A stretch of 57,792 bases of DNA from Thermanaerothrix sp. (GTDB lineage: Bacteria; Synergistota; Synergistia; Synergistales; Synergistaceae), in contig JAOACP010000011.1 in NCBI GenBank assembly GCA_026417795.1, positions 1 to 57,792 of the forward strand. Reading direction: 5' to 3'. Each line of letters opens with the position of its first letter. Within the stretch, counting starts at the first letter, position 1. The translations under genes were made by a program, and so were the position numbers. This document shows, one piece after another, positions 38,894-47,861 of the stretch. The notes beneath the pieces were generated by a model. It ran no database searches and was not told the origin of the DNA. It saw nothing but the letters and a program-made list of their open reading frames with translations.

Positions 38894-38931
38894 TAAAGAA
38901 AGCCCCTTTCGCAAAGCAGAGTAGGTTTATT

Positions 38932-38937
38932 ATTATA
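38932..38937 (-). promoter_or_regulatory. -10 element upstream of mltG
   Basis: A perfect TATAAT on the minus strand, 38 bases before the chosen TTG. I cannot find a good -35 at 16-18 bases, so it may be activator dependent or simply weak. It is back-to-back with the plus-strand promoter at 38985. Confidence 0.45.
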
Positions 38938-38984
38938 CACTAATGTTCCGTCCAAACATACACAGGGATTGACAAGTTTAATGC

Positions 38985-39014
38985 TTGACTTGGCGATCTT
39001 GCCTGTGGTATAAG
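38985..39014 (+). promoter_or_regulatory. Sigma-70 promoter of the small Cys-rich gene
   Basis: TTGACT (38985-38990), an 18-base spacer, TATAAG (39009-39014). Both boxes are 5/6 matches. Predicted start near 39020, 19 bases before the GTG start of the small ORF. Confidence 0.7.
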
Positions 39015-39038
39015 CAACCAAATTTTACGAGGAGCGGG

Positions 39039-39242
39039 GTGTGGTCGGTGTATCTTATCCAGACAGCAAGGGATCTTATGGGAGGTTTTATTGCCCTTCG
39101 TCCCCTTAAGAAGAGGGGGATAGGTTGTGGCTGTTCATCCTGCTCAGGTTCTCTCTCTAGGTCCTCTTCAACCTCGAAAGATGACCTGCTCAAACTACAT
39201 CTTGCTCCTGTCCCCCCGGATATAAAGACAGCCCAGCGGTAA
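39039..39242 (+). CDS. Small Cys-rich protein, unknown
   Basis: Predicted 67-residue protein from GTG 39039, with GAGGAG 4-5 bases upstream; ATG 39078 (54 residues, AAGGGA upstream) is the alternative. I do not recognise it. The middle reads LRPLKKRGIGCGCSSCSGS, giving a CxCxxC cluster preceded by a basic patch and followed by a Ser-rich stretch; the C-terminus is DLLKLHLAPVPPDIKTAQR. There is no membrane segment or signal peptide. It has its own promoter and a terminator at 39280-39315, so it forms an isolated ~295-base transcript. Codon choice (AGG, ATA, GGG) resembles neighbouring genes. It may be a metal-binding peptide, a modified-peptide precursor or a regulatory RNA with a chance frame. 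Confidence 0.55.
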   Translation: MWSVYLIQTARDLMGGFIALRPLKKRGIGCGCSSCSGSLSRSSSTSKDDLLKLHLAPVPPDIKTAQR

Positions 39243-39279
39243 GGTTAAATCTAGCAAATCAAAGGATCACCATCTTTAA

Positions 39280-39315
39280 CGGGGAGGCCGGTACGGACCT
39301 CCCCGAAATCTTTTT
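39280..39315 (+). terminator. Terminator after the small Cys-rich gene
   Basis: Stem CGGGGAGG (39280-39287) / CCTCCCCG (39298-39305), extended inside by CCG/CGG with one bulged A and a GTA loop. AAAT and then CTTTTTT follow. The U tract begins 4-5 bases after the stem, slightly late. Confidence 0.7.
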
Positions 39316-39399
39316 TAAGGGTCCTTTATTGAGAGGCAATGGCCGGTAACTAGTTTTAGATTTAGCTAATGTAAAAAGATAAAAAGGAGGTAGGTAAAG

Positions 39400-40533
39400 T
39401 TGAGGATGCTTTTAACTCCCGGTCCGGTGGACATCCCCTTTGAAGTATCCATTGGCGGTGCCATGAGAATGATCTCCCATAGGGGATCAGATTTCTCTCG
39501 CCTATATTCTGATCTGCTCCACCAATTGTCCTGCCTGTTTGAGGTTGGAGAACCTCCGATCCCAATACCCGGATCCGGTACTGGTGCGTTGGATGCCCTT
39601 TGCAGCAACCTGATTTCCCCCGGTGATAGGGTGATATCAATATCCTGCGGTTTCTTTGGAGAAAGATTTAGGGAGATAGCCTCAAGGTATGGGGCTGTGA
39701 TTGAGATGATAGACGTGCCCTGGGGTGAGTCGGTGGAGGTCCATCACCTGTTGGACGCTTTAGAACGTTTCCCTGGGGCCAGGGCAATACTTTTAACCCA
39801 CAACGAGACATCCACAGGGGTTCTTAATCCCGTAGAAGAACTGGCCAGATCCGTACCGCAGGATGGCCCCTTGATACTGCTTGATTCGGTCAGTGCCGCA
39901 GGGGCTGCGCCTTGTCTTCCTGAAAGATGGGGGCTTGATGGGATAGCGACCTCTTCGCAAAAGGGATTGATGGCCCCTCCGGGAGTTGGGCTGGTATGGC
40001 TGTCCAAGAGGGCTTGGGAGAGGGCCCAAGAGGTGCGGTGCCCCTCTTACTCCATGGATTTAAAGCTGTACAGGAAGTATCTTTCCAACGATCCGGAAAC
40101 CCCATACACCCCACCCATATCCCTCTACGTTCAATTATTAAAAGGAATTGAGATTATCCTAAGAAATAAGGAGGGATGGTGGGAAACCCGAGCCCGAATT
40201 TCAAAGGCCCTATGTAGTGGAATAGAAGCCATGGGGTTGGACCTTTTGGTCAAATCTCCAATCAGGCGGTCCCCGGGGTTAACGGCTATCAAAATGGATC
40301 CCAACTTGGTAAGTGGGGTTCGCCGCAATTTAAGGGACATGGGAATTCATGTGGCGGGCGGTCAAGGGGTGTTTAAAGACAGCCTCATCAGGATCGCCCA
40401 TTACACAGATATGGGGTGGCCGGAGGTTTGTACGATCATAGGTTCCCTCTGGAGAGCCTTAAATGAGCTTGGGGTGAGGTCTGATGTTGGGCGTGCCATT
40501 GAAGCGGCTAACAAGACAATGGATGAGAGGTGA
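39400..40533 (+). CDS. Class V aminotransferase (serine/alanine-glyoxylate or phosphoserine type)
   Basis: PLP enzyme of the SgaA/AGT family. TPGPV at the N-terminus, SHRGSDFSRLY, GSGTGALDAL, the LLTHNETSTG segment, DSVSAAGA and the PLP lysine Lys188 in SSQKGLMAPPG are visible. Canonical SerC is a separate branch of class V. This family normally transaminates serine, alanine or glyoxylate, but its position just before serA suggests it supplies phosphohydroxypyruvate aminotransferase activity; that is inference. TTG 39400 follows AAAGGAGG by 9 bases; ATG 39406 is too far from it. Confidence 0.88.
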   Translation: MRMLLTPGPVDIPFEVSIGGAMRMISHRGSDFSRLYSDLLHQLSCLFEVGEPPIPIPGSGTGALDALCSNLISPGDRVISISCGFFGERFREIASRYGAVIEMIDVPWGESVEVHHLLDALERFPGARAILLTHNETSTGVLNPVEELARSVPQDGPLILLDSVSAAGAAPCLPERWGLDGIATSSQKGLMAPPGVGLVWLSKRAWERAQEVRCPSYSMDLKLYRKYLSNDPETPYTPPISLYVQLLKGIEIILRNKEGWWETRARISKALCSGIEAMGLDLLVKSPIRRSPGLTAIKMDPNLVSGVRRNLRDMGIHVAGGQGVFKDSLIRIAHYTDMGWPEVCTIIGSLWRALNELGVRSDVGRAIEAANKTMDER

Positions 40534-40539
40534 TTTACC

Positions 40540-42189
40540 GTGTGGAAGGTTTTAGTTACCGAATCGATCCATGAAGAAGGACTGCAAATCCTGCGGGATG
40601 CAACTGATGTAACTCTGGTTGAAAAGGTCGGCATATCCAAGGATGAGCTCTTGGCGGAGCTTATTGATGTGGATGCGCTGCTTACCAGGAGCGGAACCGC
40701 CATTGATGTACAGGTGCTTGAATCGGCTCCTAAGCTCAAGGTGGTGGCAAGGGCCGGCGTCGGGGTGGACAATGTGGACCTTATGGAGGCAAGCAAAAGG
40801 GGGGTTGTGGTTATAAATGCCCCCACGGGGAACACTCTGTCGGCAGCGGATCACACCATGGCCCTAATGCTGAGCCTCATAAGAAGGTTACCCCAGGCCC
40901 ACGCTTCCATCCTGGCGGGCAAGTGGGACAGGAAAAGCTTCATGGGACATCAGCTTCATGGCAAGAAGCTACTCATAATAGGGCTAGGCAAAATTGGCAG
41001 TCAGGTGGCAATCAGGGGAAGGGCTTTCGGTATGGAAGTGTATACCTATGACCCCTATGTGCCTGAGGTGAAGATGGATAACCTTGGGGTGCTCAGGGCT
41101 GAGAACCTTGAGGATGGCCTTGCCATCGCAGATGTGGTAACAATTCACGTTCCCCTGACCGAGGAGACCAGAGGCCTGTTGGACGAAAACCGAATAAGGA
41201 CCATTAAGAGGGGGGCTTATCTAATAAATTGTGCAAGGGGCGGATTGATGGATGAGAGCGCCTGTTATGACGCTCTGAAAGATGGGAGGCTATCGGGGGT
41301 GGCCATCGACGTATATGGCCATGAGCCGGTTAACCGTGATCATCCGCTTCTAAACGAAGATGTGAGGGATCGGGTGGTGCTAACTCCTCACATAGGTGCC
41401 AATACCTTCGAGGCTCAGTCGGCGGTCGCCAGGATAGCTGCGCAAAACCTGCTGGCGGCGTTACGGGGCGAACCATATGAGCATGCAGTCAACCTGCCAT
41501 TTATGAAACATCGCTTGTCGGACCTAAAGAAAAGGTTCCTGGCCCTGTCTAGAAACCTTGGGATATTGGGTACCCACATGGCGGACCTTACTAAGGGAGC
41601 TGTGAAATCCTGTAGCGTGGTGTTGAGGGGTCCAGTTTTTCAAGATGAGGATGAGCCCATAAGGTTTGAGGCCCCCTTTAGGCTGAAACCATATACGGTG
41701 GCCTTCCTGAAGGGACTTTTAGAGGTGCGGCACGGAGCAGAGGTTAACTACATGATAGCCCCCCTGATTGCCAGGGATAAGGGTATAGACATAGAGGAGG
41801 GCATGGGAGAATCCAACACGTATAGGAACGTTATAGAAGTAATCATAACCACCGAGAGGGGTTCTGTCCGCCTTATGGGGACTGTAACGGAAGAAGGCAG
41901 ACAAAGGGTGGTTAGGATAAACGATTATTGGCTTGACCTAATACCATCGGGCAAGATTTTGCTCTTCCAAAATCACGACAGACCTGGGGTAATAGGCAAG
42001 GTAGGCACCCTACTGGGCAGAGCTAACGTAAACATAGCGAACTTCGCGTTGGGAAGAAAGAATGGGAGCGGTCTTGCCCTGGCGGCTATGCAGATAGATC
42101 AGGATCTCAACGAAGGCCTGCTTAAAACCCTAAGGGAGGATGGGGATCTGATCTGGGCCACCACGGTTTCACTGAAGGAGGATCTGTGA
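40540..42189 (+). CDS. serA: D-3-phosphoglycerate dehydrogenase, long (ACT) form
   Basis: First step of serine synthesis. The 549 residues are the long form: substrate/NAD domains (RAGVGVDNVDL, GLGKIG at 148-153, conserved Arg233, His284 in LTPHIGANT), an intervening ASB-like domain (~310-465), and a C-terminal ACT domain (LLFQNHDRPGVIGKVGTLLG) that usually mediates serine feedback. GTG 40540 has GAGAGG upstream. It begins 6 bases after the aminotransferase and overlaps the phosphatase gene by one base. Confidence 0.95.
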   Translation: MWKVLVTESIHEEGLQILRDATDVTLVEKVGISKDELLAELIDVDALLTRSGTAIDVQVLESAPKLKVVARAGVGVDNVDLMEASKRGVVVINAPTGNTLSAADHTMALMLSLIRRLPQAHASILAGKWDRKSFMGHQLHGKKLLIIGLGKIGSQVAIRGRAFGMEVYTYDPYVPEVKMDNLGVLRAENLEDGLAIADVVTIHVPLTEETRGLLDENRIRTIKRGAYLINCARGGLMDESACYDALKDGRLSGVAIDVYGHEPVNRDHPLLNEDVRDRVVLTPHIGANTFEAQSAVARIAAQNLLAALRGEPYEHAVNLPFMKHRLSDLKKRFLALSRNLGILGTHMADLTKGAVKSCSVVLRGPVFQDEDEPIRFEAPFRLKPYTVAFLKGLLEVRHGAEVNYMIAPLIARDKGIDIEEGMGESNTYRNVIEVIITTERGSVRLMGTVTEEGRQRVVRINDYWLDLIPSGKILLFQNHDRPGVIGKVGTLLGRANVNIANFALGRKNGSGLALAAMQIDQDLNEGLLKTLREDGDLIWATTVSLKEDL

Positions 42190-42833
42190 TGAACCTTATC
42201 TTGATTAGGCATGGCCAGACCGATTGGAACAGGGAGGGGCGATTTCAGGGGAGGATGGACGTCCCACTTAATGAAACTGGCACCCTAGAGGCGGCGGCGC
42301 TGGCCTCCAGGTTGAAGGATGTAAGCGTAGATTGGATAGTGTCCAGTCCGTTAAGCAGGGCAATGAAGACCGCGGAGGCCATAACTCAGTTCAACATGGA
42401 TATGCCGGATGTGGAGGTCTGTGCGGACCTTGTGGAAATAAGCCATGGAGATTGGGAAGGGCTGTTGTTCGAGGAGGTCCTTGACAAGTGGCCAGACCTG
42501 TTGCGCCTTTGGCGGAATCGTCCTTCGGAGGTTACCATGCCAAACGGAGAAAACCTCCATCAGGTTGCCCAAAGGGCCATAAAAGCGATAAAGGCTATCA
42601 GGGAAAGGGTATCCAATGGACAAACTGTGTGCGTGGTAACCCATGATGCGGTCATAAAGGCCATACTTTGTGACATATTGCAGGCCCCGTTGGATTCTTT
42701 TTGGCGATTTATAATACCCAACGCAAGCCTCACGGTGATAAAGTTCATTGAAAACATTCCGAAGCTGGCTCTATTGGGAGATTCAAACCACCTCAATAAA
42801 GGCTTTATCTTTTCAGAGCAAAAGGGCTTGTGA
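42189..42833 (+). CDS. Histidine-phosphatase family enzyme (probable phosphoserine phosphatase)
   Basis: dPGM-like enzyme with RHG at 7-9 (catalytic His8), the NREGRFQGRMDVPLN segment, the ISHGDWEG motif with its acidic residue and second His152 in VVTHDAVIK. These enzymes act on many phosphomonoesters. Metal-independent phosphoserine phosphatases of Hydrogenobacter belong to this superfamily. Operon position directly after serA makes phosphoserine the likely substrate. ATG 42189 follows AAGGAGGA by 6 bases and overlaps the serA stop. Cofactor-dependent mutase or cobalamin-pathway phosphatase are the alternatives. Confidence 0.87.
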   Translation: MNLILIRHGQTDWNREGRFQGRMDVPLNETGTLEAAALASRLKDVSVDWIVSSPLSRAMKTAEAITQFNMDMPDVEVCADLVEISHGDWEGLLFEEVLDKWPDLLRLWRNRPSEVTMPNGENLHQVAQRAIKAIKAIRERVSNGQTVCVVTHDAVIKAILCDILQAPLDSFWRFIIPNASLTVIKFIENIPKLALLGDSNHLNKGFIFSEQKGL

Positions 42834-43424: not shown

Positions 43425-44057
43425 CTATATCCCCAGTTTCTGATTTAAGAGAGCTTCCACTTCCTTGCCGGTCTTGGCTATCCTGTCAAGGCTTTCCCTA
43501 ACCTGGTCCTCACATTGCTTAACGAAGTCCTGGTCCTCTATGCCAGGAAGGTTAACGAAAACGTTATAAGCCGCCGCCTTTGCTGCAGCCTGCGCCAAAA
43601 GGGCTGCGGTACCTGCGTCGGTTACCGCGTTGGGGTTACCCGACTCTGCGGCCTTAAAGGCCGTGTCCATCAATGCCTCGCATGTCTTGAGGGTTGCCAG
43701 GGGAACCATTGCGGTTTTCTTTGATGCCTCCGCAATAGCCAGAGCCCTTGCGGTCTTTTCCTGGTCCGTGTCTTTGGGCATCTTCCTGGCCGCCATGAAC
43801 TGGTTGAAGGACTCGGTGTCCTCTTCCATGAGGTCCAGGAACTTTCTGTTAAGCTCTAGCCCATCAGAAATTACCTTCTCCATGGCATCCCAGGAGTCCC
43901 TATACCTCTCCTTGCCCACCGTAAGCCTTGCCACCATCGTGGCTAAGGCTCCTCCAAGGGCTCCGCAGATGGCCGCAACGCTGCCTCCGCCAGGGGCGGG
44001 GGAATCGGATGCCAGTTCTTCGACAAACGATTTCACGGTCATGTCCTGAAGCTTCAT
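43425..44057 (-). CDS. fchA: Formiminotetrahydrofolate cyclodeaminase
   Basis: Converts 5-formimino-THF to 5,10-methenyl-THF and ammonia. The 210-residue stand-alone form shows the family start SPAPGGGSVAAICGALGGAL, the ERYRDSW region, the long helix SFNQFMAARKMPKDT and the NPNAVTDAGTAALLAQAA segment. Strong SD (TAGGAGGATT) before ATG 44057. Last gene of the hutH-ftcD-hutI-fchA set; it hands a one-carbon unit to folate metabolism, from which formate and ATP can be made. Confidence 0.95.
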   Translation of the reverse strand: MKLQDMTVKSFVEELASDSPAPGGGSVAAICGALGGALATMVARLTVGKERYRDSWDAMEKVISDGLELNRKFLDLMEEDTESFNQFMAARKMPKDTDQEKTARALAIAEASKKTAMVPLATLKTCEALMDTAFKAAESGNPNAVTDAGTAALLAQAAAKAAAYNVFVNLPGIEDQDFVKQCEDQVRESLDRIAKTGKEVEALLNQKLGI

Positions 44058-44104
44058 TCGGTTAATCCTCCTAAGAGCGTTTCTAAATATAGAGAGACGG
44101 GGAG

Positions 44105-45349
44105 CTAAACCACCTTTTCACCGCGCTTGTAAACTTCAAGCACGGAGTTAACCCCTGCATGGTATGCCATGGTGGCCGGGGTCTTACCGTCCAGCACCAC
44201 AAAATCCGCCTGTTTACCCTCCTCCAAAGATCCTACTCTATGCCCCATACCTATCGCATGGGCGGCGTTCAGGGTGCACCCCACCAAAGCCTCCTCCACT
44301 GACATGCCCATGTTCATCACCGCAAGACCGAATACAAACTGAATAGACTCACAGAAACATGATCCCGGGTTGCAATCGGTGGCCAACGCTACCGGCACCC
44401 CAAGCTCAATCATCTTGCGGGCCCTTGCATAGGGTTTTTTAAGGCTGTAAGCGGTTGCGGGGAGAAGCACAGCGATTACCCCCGCTTCCGCCATGGCGGC
44501 TAAACCTTGGTCGGAAGCGGCCAACAGGTGTTCTGCGGACAACGTTCTGAGTTCCGCTGCAAGGGAGGCACCACCGAGGTCATGCACCTCATCGGCATGG
44601 ATCTTAAGCTCAAGGCCGTTGCTCCTTGCGCATGAAAGTATCTTGCGGGATTGATCAACCGAGAACACCCCATCCTCGCAGAACACGTCGCAAAAGCGGG
44701 CAATCCCCTGCTCCACGACGGCTGGGATCATCTCGCCGCATAGCACATCCACGAACTTATCAGGATCATTTCTAAATTCCTCGGGCACCGCATGGGCACC
44801 CATAAACGTTGCGACTACGTCCATGGGGGTTTCTTTGCCAATTCGCTTTATGACGTTGAGCATCCTAAGCTCCGATTCGGTGTCTAACCCATAGCCGCTT
44901 TTTATCTCCACCGTGGTGGTTCCGTGTTTAAGGGCGCTCATTACGTTTGCCCTGGTGGCTTCGTACAGATCGTGGTCACTTGAGGCCCTAACTGCCCTTA
45001 CGGACGACAGTATCCCCCCGCCGGACCTTAATATCTCAAGATATGGGACCCCATGCAACCTTTGGGAAAATTCCTCCTCCCTCCTTGAGACAAAACACAT
45101 GTGGGTGTGGGGATCTACAAAACCCGGCACGATGCACTTGCCATTCAAATTTATCTCCTGGTTAACCGCAAGGGTAGAAGAATGGGCTAGTACATCCTCC
45201 TCCGGGCCCACCATTTCGATTATCCCGTCCACACAAAGGATAGCCCCGGCCTCTATTTCCTGGACGCTCCCCTGTTCCGCTCCTCTTAAAGGGCCAGATC
45301 CTCCCCTTGGGGTGTATATCCTTGCGTTGCGGAAGAGCTTTACGGTCAT
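44105..45349 (-). CDS. hutI: Imidazolonepropionase
   Basis: Amidohydrolase that opens imidazolone-5-propionate to N-formimino-L-glutamate. Metal-binding HTH at 81-83 (PGFVDPHTHMCF), EIKSGYGLD, FMGAHAVP, IHADEVHDLGGA and LATDCNPGSC match HutI closely. The 414 residues are normal length. ATG 45349 overlaps the ftcD stop as ATGA. The first 50 residues include a short insertion (GGSGPLRGAEQGSVQEIEAG). Confidence 0.96.
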   Translation of the reverse strand: MTVKLFRNARIYTPRGGSGPLRGAEQGSVQEIEAGAILCVDGIIEMVGPEEDVLAHSSTLAVNQEINLNGKCIVPGFVDPHTHMCFVSRREEEFSQRLHGVPYLEILRSGGGILSSVRAVRASSDHDLYEATRANVMSALKHGTTTVEIKSGYGLDTESELRMLNVIKRIGKETPMDVVATFMGAHAVPEEFRNDPDKFVDVLCGEMIPAVVEQGIARFCDVFCEDGVFSVDQSRKILSCARSNGLELKIHADEVHDLGGASLAAELRTLSAEHLLAASDQGLAAMAEAGVIAVLLPATAYSLKKPYARARKMIELGVPVALATDCNPGSCFCESIQFVFGLAVMNMGMSVEEALVGCTLNAAHAIGMGHRVGSLEEGKQADFVVLDGKTPATMAYHAGVNSVLEVYKRGEKVV

Positions 45350-46269
45350 TTCACGCTCTCTCCCATTAGCTTAAGCAACCTCAGCTCTATGACCTGCTGT
45401 GGGTCAAAATCGGCCACCTGCAGGTAATAGGCCGCACTGTCCAGGATTGCGCCAGCGGGTATCATCCCGTATATCTCGGTCTCCACAACCGGCACGCCGT
45501 AACGCCTTGCCTCCATCCTTATGGTTTCCAGCACCCTGTAAAGGGAGTTCTTCTCGTAATCCACCAGGTTCATGCTAACCTGTACCATGCCCTTCTCTTC
45601 CAGGGCCACACCTATGCCTTTGACATGACAGAACCCGCCGCTGGAAGCCCTTACGTAGGACGCTATCTTCTTGGCCACATCTAAGTTAGTGGTACCAAGG
45701 TTGACGTTAAAGGCGACCAAAAACTTCCTTGCCCCTATAACGGTGGCCCCAGCTGTGGGGTGCAGGGCTGGACCACCAACATCAGGGTGCCTGTCGGGGT
45801 TGCTAGCCGCCTCGTCCTTTAAGGCTTCGTACTGGCCCTTCCTTATGACCTCTAACTTCTTCCGATCCGGCCTTAAAGCCGCATCTTCATAGTAGTAGAC
45901 GGGGATCCCGGTAGTCTCGTGGTAACGTCTGCCGAACCCCCTGGCCAGTTCCACGCATTCCTCCATGGTTATCCCGGAGACGGGGGTAAACGGTATAACG
46001 TCCACCGCTCCAATCCTTGGATGCGCGCCTTTATGGGTGTTCATATCTATATGAGATTGGGCAATCTTAGCGGATTCTATTACGGCCTCCTGAAGCGGCT
46101 CTGGATTCCCCACCAGGCTGACCACCAAGCGGTTATGATCCTCATCGGCGCGGTAGTCGAAGAGGTAAACCCCCGGCCTGTTCTTAAAGGGCTCCACGAT
46201 GGCCTCTATGATGTCCTTCCTACGACCTTCACTGTAGTTCGGTACGCACTCGACAAGGGCTTTGCTCAA
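45346..46269 (-). CDS. ftcD: Glutamate formimidoyltransferase
   Basis: Moves the formimino group from N-formimino-glutamate to THF, leaving glutamate. It is the single-domain bacterial form, with the cyclodeaminase encoded separately by fchA. Signatures are VECVPNYSEGRR at the start, DYRADEDHNRLVVSLVG, NTHKGAHPRIGAVDVIPF and RKFLVAFNVNLGTTNLDVAK. TTG 46269 follows GGGGGGT by 7 bases. Separated from hutH by 59 bases without a gene or clear signal. Confidence 0.95.
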   Translation of the reverse strand: MSKALVECVPNYSEGRRKDIIEAIVEPFKNRPGVYLFDYRADEDHNRLVVSLVGNPEPLQEAVIESAKIAQSHIDMNTHKGAHPRIGAVDVIPFTPVSGITMEECVELARGFGRRYHETTGIPVYYYEDAALRPDRKKLEVIRKGQYEALKDEAASNPDRHPDVGGPALHPTAGATVIGARKFLVAFNVNLGTTNLDVAKKIASYVRASSGGFCHVKGIGVALEEKGMVQVSMNLVDYEKNSLYRVLETIRMEARRYGVPVVETEIYGMIPAGAILDSAAYYLQVADFDPQQVIELRLLKLMGESVK

Positions 46270-46328
46270 CTTAGATACCCCCCAATTATTTTGGTCTTTA
46301 CTTTATTAGGATAATCAGCAAGCATCCG

Positions 46329-47861
46329 CTAGTCCAAAGAACCTATGGCGGACTCGACGGCTTCTAAGATAGCCCCTTCATTCACTAATGACAAGGCCTC
46401 ACATATCATGGGATGTATATATGCATCTTCCTCCATGAACGGTATCCTCTCCCGGACGCAGTCATAGGCCGCCTTTGTCCCCCTCCCTGGGTTCAGGGGC
46501 ATTGAGAATTCAAGTCCCTGAGTTGCGGTAAGGAGCTCTATGGCCACAACCTTTCGGGAGTTCTCCAGTATATTGCGGCCCTTTCTGGCCGCATAGGTTC
46601 CCATGGAGACATGATCCTCCTGATTTGCGGAGGTGGGTATGGAATCCACCGACGATGGATGGGCAAGCACCTTGTTCTCCGACACAATTGATGCGGCGGT
46701 ATACTGGGGTATCATGAATCCACTGTTTACGCCACTCTCCTTAACCAGGAACGGCGGTAACCCGGACAGCTTATGATCCACAAGGCGAGCTATCCGGCGC
46801 TCAGAAATGTTCGCTATCTCAGCCATGGCTATTCCGAAAAAGTCCATCGCTATAGCCATGGGTTGGCCATGGAAGTTACCGCCGCTTATTGCCTCGTCGT
46901 CGGAGGGGAAGATGAGGGGGTTATCCGTTACGGAGTTTATCTCTATCTCAACCTTCTGCCTAACATACTCCAAAGCGTCCCTGCTTGCCCCGTGTACCTG
47001 GGGGATGCAGCGCAATGAGTAGGCGTCCTGCACCCGGTTCCCTTTGTATTTTTCCACGATCTCGCTTCCTTCTATAAGACGCCTCATATTGGACGCCACG
47101 GCCCTTTGCCCCGCGTGGGGACGCAAATCATGGGTACGTTTGTCAAACGCATAGGGAACCCCGTGAAGGGCCTCTAGAGATATGGCGGCTGTCACGTCTG
47201 CAGTTTTGAGTAGGGCCTGCGCGTCAACGACGCATAAAGCCGCGATGGCGGTCATAACGGTGGTTCCGTTGTTCAGCGCCAGCCCCTCTTTGGGGCCAAG
47301 CTCTATGGGGCTAAGAGACACTTCCTTGAGGGCGTCCATCGTCGGCATCCTGCGCCCCTTGAAGAAGACCTCCCCCTCCCCTAAGAGGGTGATTGCCAGA
47401 TGAGACAGGGGACACAGGTCACCGCTGGCCCCCACGGATCCCTGGGAAGGTATCACCGGGTGTATTCCAAGGTTAAGATAGTTGACTAGCTGCATCAGAG
47501 TTGGCAGGCTTATGCCGGAAAAACCCCTGGTCAAGGTGTTGATCCTCAGCAGCATGATGGCCCTTACTAGATCCTCTGGGAAGGGCTCCCCTGTCCCGCA
47601 GGCATGACTCAACAATAGGTTGCGCTGCAAAAGCCGGCTCTTGTCCGATGGTATGGAGACGTTAGCCAAATCGCCAAAACCCGTGGTTATCCCATACACT
47701 ACCCTTCCTTGGTCAACCCAGGTGCTTACCGCTTTAGAGCCCCTTTCAACGAACGCCTCGGCGGAAGGATCAAGAGCAACCTGCCATCCGTACCTTGCAA
47801 CCCCAACCACATCCTCCAGCGTTAAGCCATGACCGTTGAGTTCCACTACCCTACGAGCCAC
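46329..47861 (-). CDS. hutH: Histidine ammonia-lyase
   Basis: Deaminates histidine to urocanate using the MIO cofactor, formed from Ala145-Ser146-Gly147 in GSVGASGDLCPLSH. Other blocks: GITTGFGDLANV, NLLLSHACGTGE, LALNNGTTVM, QDAYSLRCIPQVHGASRD and the SGGNFHGQPMA loop. The GTG 47861 start has AAGGGGGG 8 bases upstream. It is the first gene of the histidine-degradation set and has no hutU beside it. The 62 bases upstream contain no promoter I can defend. Confidence 0.97.
   Translation of the reverse strand: MARRVVELNGHGLTLEDVVGVARYGWQVALDPSAEAFVERGSKAVSTWVDQGRVVYGITTGFGDLANVSIPSDKSRLLQRNLLLSHACGTGEPFPEDLVRAIMLLRINTLTRGFSGISLPTLMQLVNYLNLGIHPVIPSQGSVGASGDLCPLSHLAITLLGEGEVFFKGRRMPTMDALKEVSLSPIELGPKEGLALNNGTTVMTAIAALCVVDAQALLKTADVTAAISLEALHGVPYAFDKRTHDLRPHAGQRAVASNMRRLIEGSEIVEKYKGNRVQDAYSLRCIPQVHGASRDALEYVRQKVEIEINSVTDNPLIFPSDDEAISGGNFHGQPMAIAMDFFGIAMAEIANISERRIARLVDHKLSGLPPFLVKESGVNSGFMIPQYTAASIVSENKVLAHPSSVDSIPTSANQEDHVSMGTYAARKGRNILENSRKVVAIELLTATQGLEFSMPLNPGRGTKAAYDCVRERIPFMEEDAYIHPMICEALSLVNEGAILEAVESAIGSLD

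Follow-up and report, generated by a model that had tools for sequence, protein, structure and literature searches.

A serine-codon leader before the serine operon of Thermanaerothrix sp. and other Synergistota, a probable ribosome-mediated transcription attenuator

In the 57,792-nucleotide stretch of Thermanaerothrix sp. DNA analysed here (the window), a short transcription unit with a small reading frame lies between mltG and a group of serine genes, which raises the question of what this unit and its predicted protein are for. A sequence-only reading had described it as an isolated unit for an unrecognised Cys-rich protein that could bind a metal, be a precursor for modification, or be a translated part of a regulatory RNA. 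The elements that it listed, namely a promoter, a Shine-Dalgarno sequence, a frame ending in TAA, a hairpin and a T6 tract, can all be read directly from the sequence where it had placed them. All of the leader and operon features given below lie on the forward (+) strand. The putative promoter of leader and operon is of the sigma-70 type, TTGACT-N18-TATAAG (38985–39014), with its boxes at 38985–38990 and 39009–39014 and a spacer of 18 nt. The Shine-Dalgarno sequence GAGGAG (39029–39034) is followed by three in-frame candidate starts, GTG 39039 (67 codons, 4 nt beyond the GAGGAG), GTG 39048 (64 codons, 13 nt beyond it) and ATG 39078 (54 codons). By eye GTG 39048 lines up with the GTG of the two nearest leaders, those of the related loci L010 and L011. 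Taking this codon as a provisional start, we give the leader-peptide ORF as 39048–39242, with 64 codons and the stop TAA at 39240–39242.

The terminator of the window (39280–39316) consists of a hairpin at 39280–39305 of about -21 kcal/mol, the bases AAATC, and the T6 tract at 39311–39316. A strict consensus scan scored neither this terminator nor the promoter, the former because five bases separate the hairpin from the T tract. Both assignments are supported by homologous sequences in relatives. Loci L010 to L012 keep TTGAC...TATAAG together with the downstream GCAACNAAATTT, and TTGAC/TATAA boxes occur in most other loci. In most relatives a script located a hairpin with a T run ahead of the operon; the hairpin there is strong and the T run follows it directly. 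The terminator finder returned none in L033, and the position of the window terminator was set by hand.

Family models bear out the placement of the unit between mltG, on its left and on the other strand, which scores over its NCBIfam cut-off, and serine genes on its right. The first of these (39400–40533) encodes a class-V aminotransferase (PF00266) of the alanine-glyoxylate type that passed the cut-off of no SerC model. We presume that it is the phosphoserine aminotransferase (SerC role) because of its operon place next to SerA. The second, serA (40540–42189), encodes phosphoglycerate dehydrogenase with an ACT domain (TIGR01327, 574 bits against a cut-off of 454). The third (42186–42833) encodes a histidine-phosphatase-family protein (PF00300), a probable phosphoserine phosphatase, whose best solved match is phosphoserine phosphatase 1 (4ij5) and whose match to the PspA model is below the cut-off. 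By annotation, aminotransferase, serA and phosphatase would provide all three steps of the phosphorylated serine pathway. Farther along the window, a minus-strand cluster at 43425–47861 has reading frames that suggest histidine degradation (hutH, hutI and formiminotransferase-type genes).

For comparison we collected a set of 30 orthologous operons of Synergistota, one of them that of the window. In 29 of these loci the aminotransferase gene is followed by serA, the remaining one (L028) being on a contig that ends early, and mltG precedes the operon in the nearer relatives. The hairpin of the window ends about 94–95 nt before the aminotransferase gene, which is read from the same strand, and relatives keep this layout as the leader of the operon; the short unit is thus not isolated. 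Promoter, short ORF with its Ser codon run and terminator hairpin together form the 5' leader of the genes that follow.

The run of Ser codons reads SSCSGSLSRSSSTS (39135–39176) and contains nine Ser codons, all of them TCN. Nine Ser within 15 codons is above every one of 200 dinucleotide shuffles, which reached seven at most. Together with the recurrence of the run at the orthologous place in most relatives this puts the Ser pattern above chance. Codons of this kind, placed between promoter and terminator ahead of serine genes, are what one would expect of a leader-peptide attenuator. If the leader is one, relatives should carry a short Ser-rich ORF at the corresponding position, however different the rest of their sequence. 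Counting any closed short ORF within 350 nt upstream that has at least 6 Ser in 15 codons, we found one in 23 of the 30 loci, compared to 2/30 for the antisense of the same stretches. The control regions upstream of gap in relatives gave 1/30, and those upstream of serS and glyA gave no Ser-rich leader (0/29). Nine of ten further Synergistota records from a separate collection, which partly duplicate genomes of the 30-locus set, also have a Ser-rich ORF, including Thermovirga sp. Upstream of non-Synergistota relatives of the aminotransferase, 12 of 70 regions reach the Ser count. Inspected by eye, most of these are Arg- and Ala-rich or are long frames from GC-rich genomes; they do not resemble the leaders, and we rejected them.

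The device is not universal, since two loci of one genus (L020 and L026, genomes G024 and G005) have the operon behind mltG without a Ser-rich ORF. Promoter-like boxes lie upstream in this genus, and L020 retains a terminator hairpin and a possible alternative pairing. L037 and L038, which are identical in the leader stretch, have 5 Ser and no convincing antiterminator. Peptide length and both termini vary among the relatives.

The comparison with L010, the nearest relative with the ORF (aminotransferase 82% identical), indicates what is kept in the frame. All nine Ser codons of the core are retained, with three synonymous changes among them, while of 11 other codons three keep the amino acid and eight change it (Fisher p = 0.0014). 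The L010 core reads SSHSGSLSWSSSNS and has lost all three Cys of the window core. The frame is thus under selection for Ser and not for Cys, which counts against the earlier description as a Cys-rich protein and, there being no Cys in the L010 core, against metal binding. Modification of a precursor fares no better, as the Cys are not kept in L010 and the flanking genes are mltG and serine synthesis. The check proposed with that description, whether the frame is kept in close relatives, gave a divided answer, with the Ser core kept and the flanks not. A tblastn search of 101 genomes with the peptide found a conserved protein nowhere. Its matches at the orthologous place are the leaders of G002 (the L010 locus) and G061 only, and the rest look like chance matches to Ser/Cys-rich sequence. 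What the earlier reading had named third, a translated part of a regulatory RNA, proved the right one of its options, the part being the Ser-codon leader of a serine operon.

The composition of the leaders is consistent with this. Relative to the aminotransferases, leader cores are enriched 4.4x in Ser, 4.4x in Cys and 1.8x in Gly. Cys and Gly are products made from serine. The Ser codons themselves are chosen unevenly, with 184 TCN to 17 AGY (n = 201) in the leaders and 545 to 161 in the aminotransferase genes (p = 1.8e-6). During serine starvation of B. subtilis, ribosomes slow at UCN and not at AGC/AGU (PMC3862929). The pairing needs of a pyrimidine-rich strand could contribute to the TCN bias.

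In minimum free energy (MFE) folds the window leader contains four strands that can pair in alternative ways. Strand 1 (39115–39124) pairs with 39207–39216 as a 1:2 hairpin when the ORF is untranslated, and its function is putative. Strand 2 (39207–39228) lies within the ORF past the Ser run and, in folds that simulate a stall, is the antiterminator partner of strand 3 (39273–39291), which comprises the 5' part of the terminator hairpin plus an upstream extension. Strand 4 covers about 39294–39305. Many leaders share, ahead of their Ser run, nucleotides close to GGNATAGG that are mostly translated as Gly-Ile-Gly (39115–39124 in the window, and the leaders of L014, L021, L022, L024, L034, L035 and L036). 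This motif may correspond to strand 1 or serve as a pause element.

We simulated stalling at 27 loci by placing a ribosome on the Ser codons and computing the MFE fold of RNA that extended only up to strand 3. A locus was counted as forming an antiterminator when strand 3 paired upstream at half or more of its Ser codons. Under simulated Ser stalls strand 3 pairs with upstream RNA, in an antiterminator that overlaps the terminator, in 25 of 27 loci; with the ribosome placed at the stop codon the terminator folds in all 27. Strand 2 starts within the ORF past the Ser run in 24 of the 27 leaders. Against mononucleotide shuffles the antiterminators gave a combined p = 7e-17, a value that overstates the case because the 27 loci are related and not independent. 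A G-rich strand finds some partner in the MFE fold of any sequence, and we therefore also swapped strands 2 and 3 between loci. Pairing of strands 2 and 3 from the same locus beat the swapped pairs (permutation p = 2e-5, 22 loci). Covariation between L013 and L016 was seen by eye: GCCGGTCTCGAAGCG pairs with CGTTTCGGAGATCGG in the one and GCCGGTCCCGAAACG with CGTTTCAGGGACCGG in the other, and the replacement of C by T in strand 2 is accompanied by fitting changes in strands 3 and 4.

The terminator and antiterminator of the window are weaker than those of its relatives. Eight of its nine Ser stalls fold the antiterminator, which taken alone is no better than shuffles (p = 0.28) or swaps. In L010 the antiterminator pairing is better than in shuffles (p = 0.024). 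As its antiterminator does not rise above shuffles or swaps and its T tract lies off the hairpin, the argument for an attenuator in the window is drawn from homology to stronger leaders, chiefly that of L010.

Our data suggest that the leader is a ribosome-mediated transcription attenuator of the serine operon that responds to the charging of Ser-tRNA, a reading to which we give a probability of about 90% from sequence comparison and folding models. The short protein is most likely an expendable leader peptide, its many serine codons serving to stall the ribosome at serine shortage and so to switch on the adjacent serine genes. RNA polymerase would start at about 39020, a position that we infer, as we do the coupling, and a ribosome would enter the short ORF. 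With charged Ser-tRNA (and probably charged Cys- and Gly-tRNA) available, the ribosome would pass the Ser run and, towards the end of the ORF, cover strand 2. Strand 3 would then pair with strand 4, and transcription would stop at the hairpin around 39316. When seryl-tRNA is short, the ribosome would stall on the TCN codons and leave strand 2 (39207–39228) free to pair with strand 3 (39273–39291) before strand 4 is made. Without the terminator, aminotransferase, serA and phosphatase would then be transcribed. If the ORF is left untranslated, pairing of strands 1 and 2 would promote termination. The leader peptide itself would have no lasting function.

By every testable defining feature the serine leader belongs with ribosome-mediated transcription attenuators. 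A translatable short ORF with a start (its exact position ambiguous), a ribosome-binding site and a stop lies upstream of the operon. It carries a conserved run of codons for the operon's own amino acid. An intrinsic terminator stands between the ORF and the first gene in most relatives, with the T tract of the window 5 nt off, and for the locus set there is an exclusive antiterminator whose strand 2 lies behind the regulatory codons. Across the relatives we observed these elements, their conserved order, the selection on Ser codons and the match between strands 2 and 3. The response to serine and the operation of the device in the strain of the window are deduced from them.

A leader ORF of this kind might instead act through translation or Rho-dependent termination, with the stalled ribosome shielding the RNA or keeping the next start open. 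The displaced T tract of the window and the strict scan that scored no terminator would fit such a device, as would the Cys leaders of Actinobacteria, which lack terminators (PMC1262725). In most relatives, however, a strong hairpin with an immediate T run stands at the same place and strand 2 matches strand 3. In addition, the hairpin of the window does not hide the ribosome-binding site of the aminotransferase gene, since it ends some 94–95 nt before the start. We therefore consider action through translation or Rho unlikely, and a wholly non-translated RNA more unlikely still. The latter would be a riboswitch, a T-box or another RNA with a pyrimidine-rich strand that happens to read as a Ser-rich frame. 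The Ser run is indeed TC-rich and by eye parts of it can pair with GGAG-type strands, but third-position changes retain Ser in frame, the ORF gaps in one group of relatives come in threes (by eye), and start, ribosome-binding site and stop are all present. In the window and 20 related loci no Rfam model, T-box riboswitch and serC RNA motif (RF00517) included, matched at the gathering threshold. When weak matches were also admitted for 38930–39420, a plant snoRNA on the other strand, far below its cut-off, was the only one, and RF00517 gave none at E up to 1.

Much the same small probability falls to a functional small protein, whether metal-binding or a precursor for Cys/Ser modification. Its Cys and Ser do lie close together, and the peptide has one Pfam match, to the FeoB-associated Cys-rich membrane protein (PF12669, FeoB_associated; 15.8 bits against a cut-off of 27, E 0.017), which we rejected since it is explained by Cys/Gly composition. 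Against a protein function, L010 has lost the Cys and its flanks have diverged, length and termini vary, the tblastn search turned up no conserved protein, only the Ser codon content is kept, and the frame sits before serine genes. A RiPP precursor, which calls for a conserved modifiable core and neighbouring modification enzymes, was rejected because these are not found here.

The attenuator reading accounts for a short ORF that gene finders would call a hypothetical protein, and it explains how Synergistota anaerobes may control serine synthesis. We found no published serine attenuator in a search that covered mainly freely accessible literature, so an earlier report is possible. As far as we found, both the amino acid and the phylum are new for leader-peptide attenuators. 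A further proposal, which we make tentatively and at a little under even odds, is that these leaders form an undescribed Synergistota-wide class, the first serine-specific leader-peptide attenuators, whose mixed Ser, Cys and Gly codons sense serine and its products and whose TCN codons are chosen because their tRNAs lose charge first. Serine codons fall into two boxes, TCN and AGY, of which the leaders use the first almost exclusively, and the leaders thereby offer a natural test of the theory of selective charging.

Several known systems share parts of this arrangement. In B. subtilis sinR, serine shortage is likewise read as slow translation of TCN codons (PMC3862929), but there the codons are part of the regulated gene and act without an attenuator RNA. 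The serC RNA motif of Alphaproteobacteria (RF00517) is also placed before a serC-serA operon; it is short (-46 to +11), is proposed to hide the ribosome-binding site, and differs in that no leader peptide was described for it (PMC1273637). In Actinobacteria, Cys leader peptides lie upstream of cys operons (PMC1262725). They resemble the present leaders as short ORFs with a codon run, there before a sulfur amino-acid operon, for an amino acid that is a neighbour in the serine family, and differ in having Cys runs instead of Ser, other genes and no terminator hairpin found there. In bacilli, his leaders have been described (PMC2965389). The closest likeness in design is to the enterobacterial attenuators. 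The transcription attenuators named in PMC1183508 are those of the trp, his, leu, thr, ilv and pheA operons, and serine is absent from that list. As in those cases, the biosynthetic operon is preceded by a short ORF with many codons for the pathway's own product, strand 2 follows these codons, and antiterminator and terminator hairpins are exclusive; the difference is that the amino acid here is serine, with Cys and Gly, and the phylum is Synergistota. The amino acids of the classic attenuators in the lists consulted (Trp, His, Leu, Thr, Ile/Val, Phe and Cys) come mostly from Proteobacteria and Actinobacteria, and a serine attenuator in Synergistota would add one amino acid and one phylum to them.
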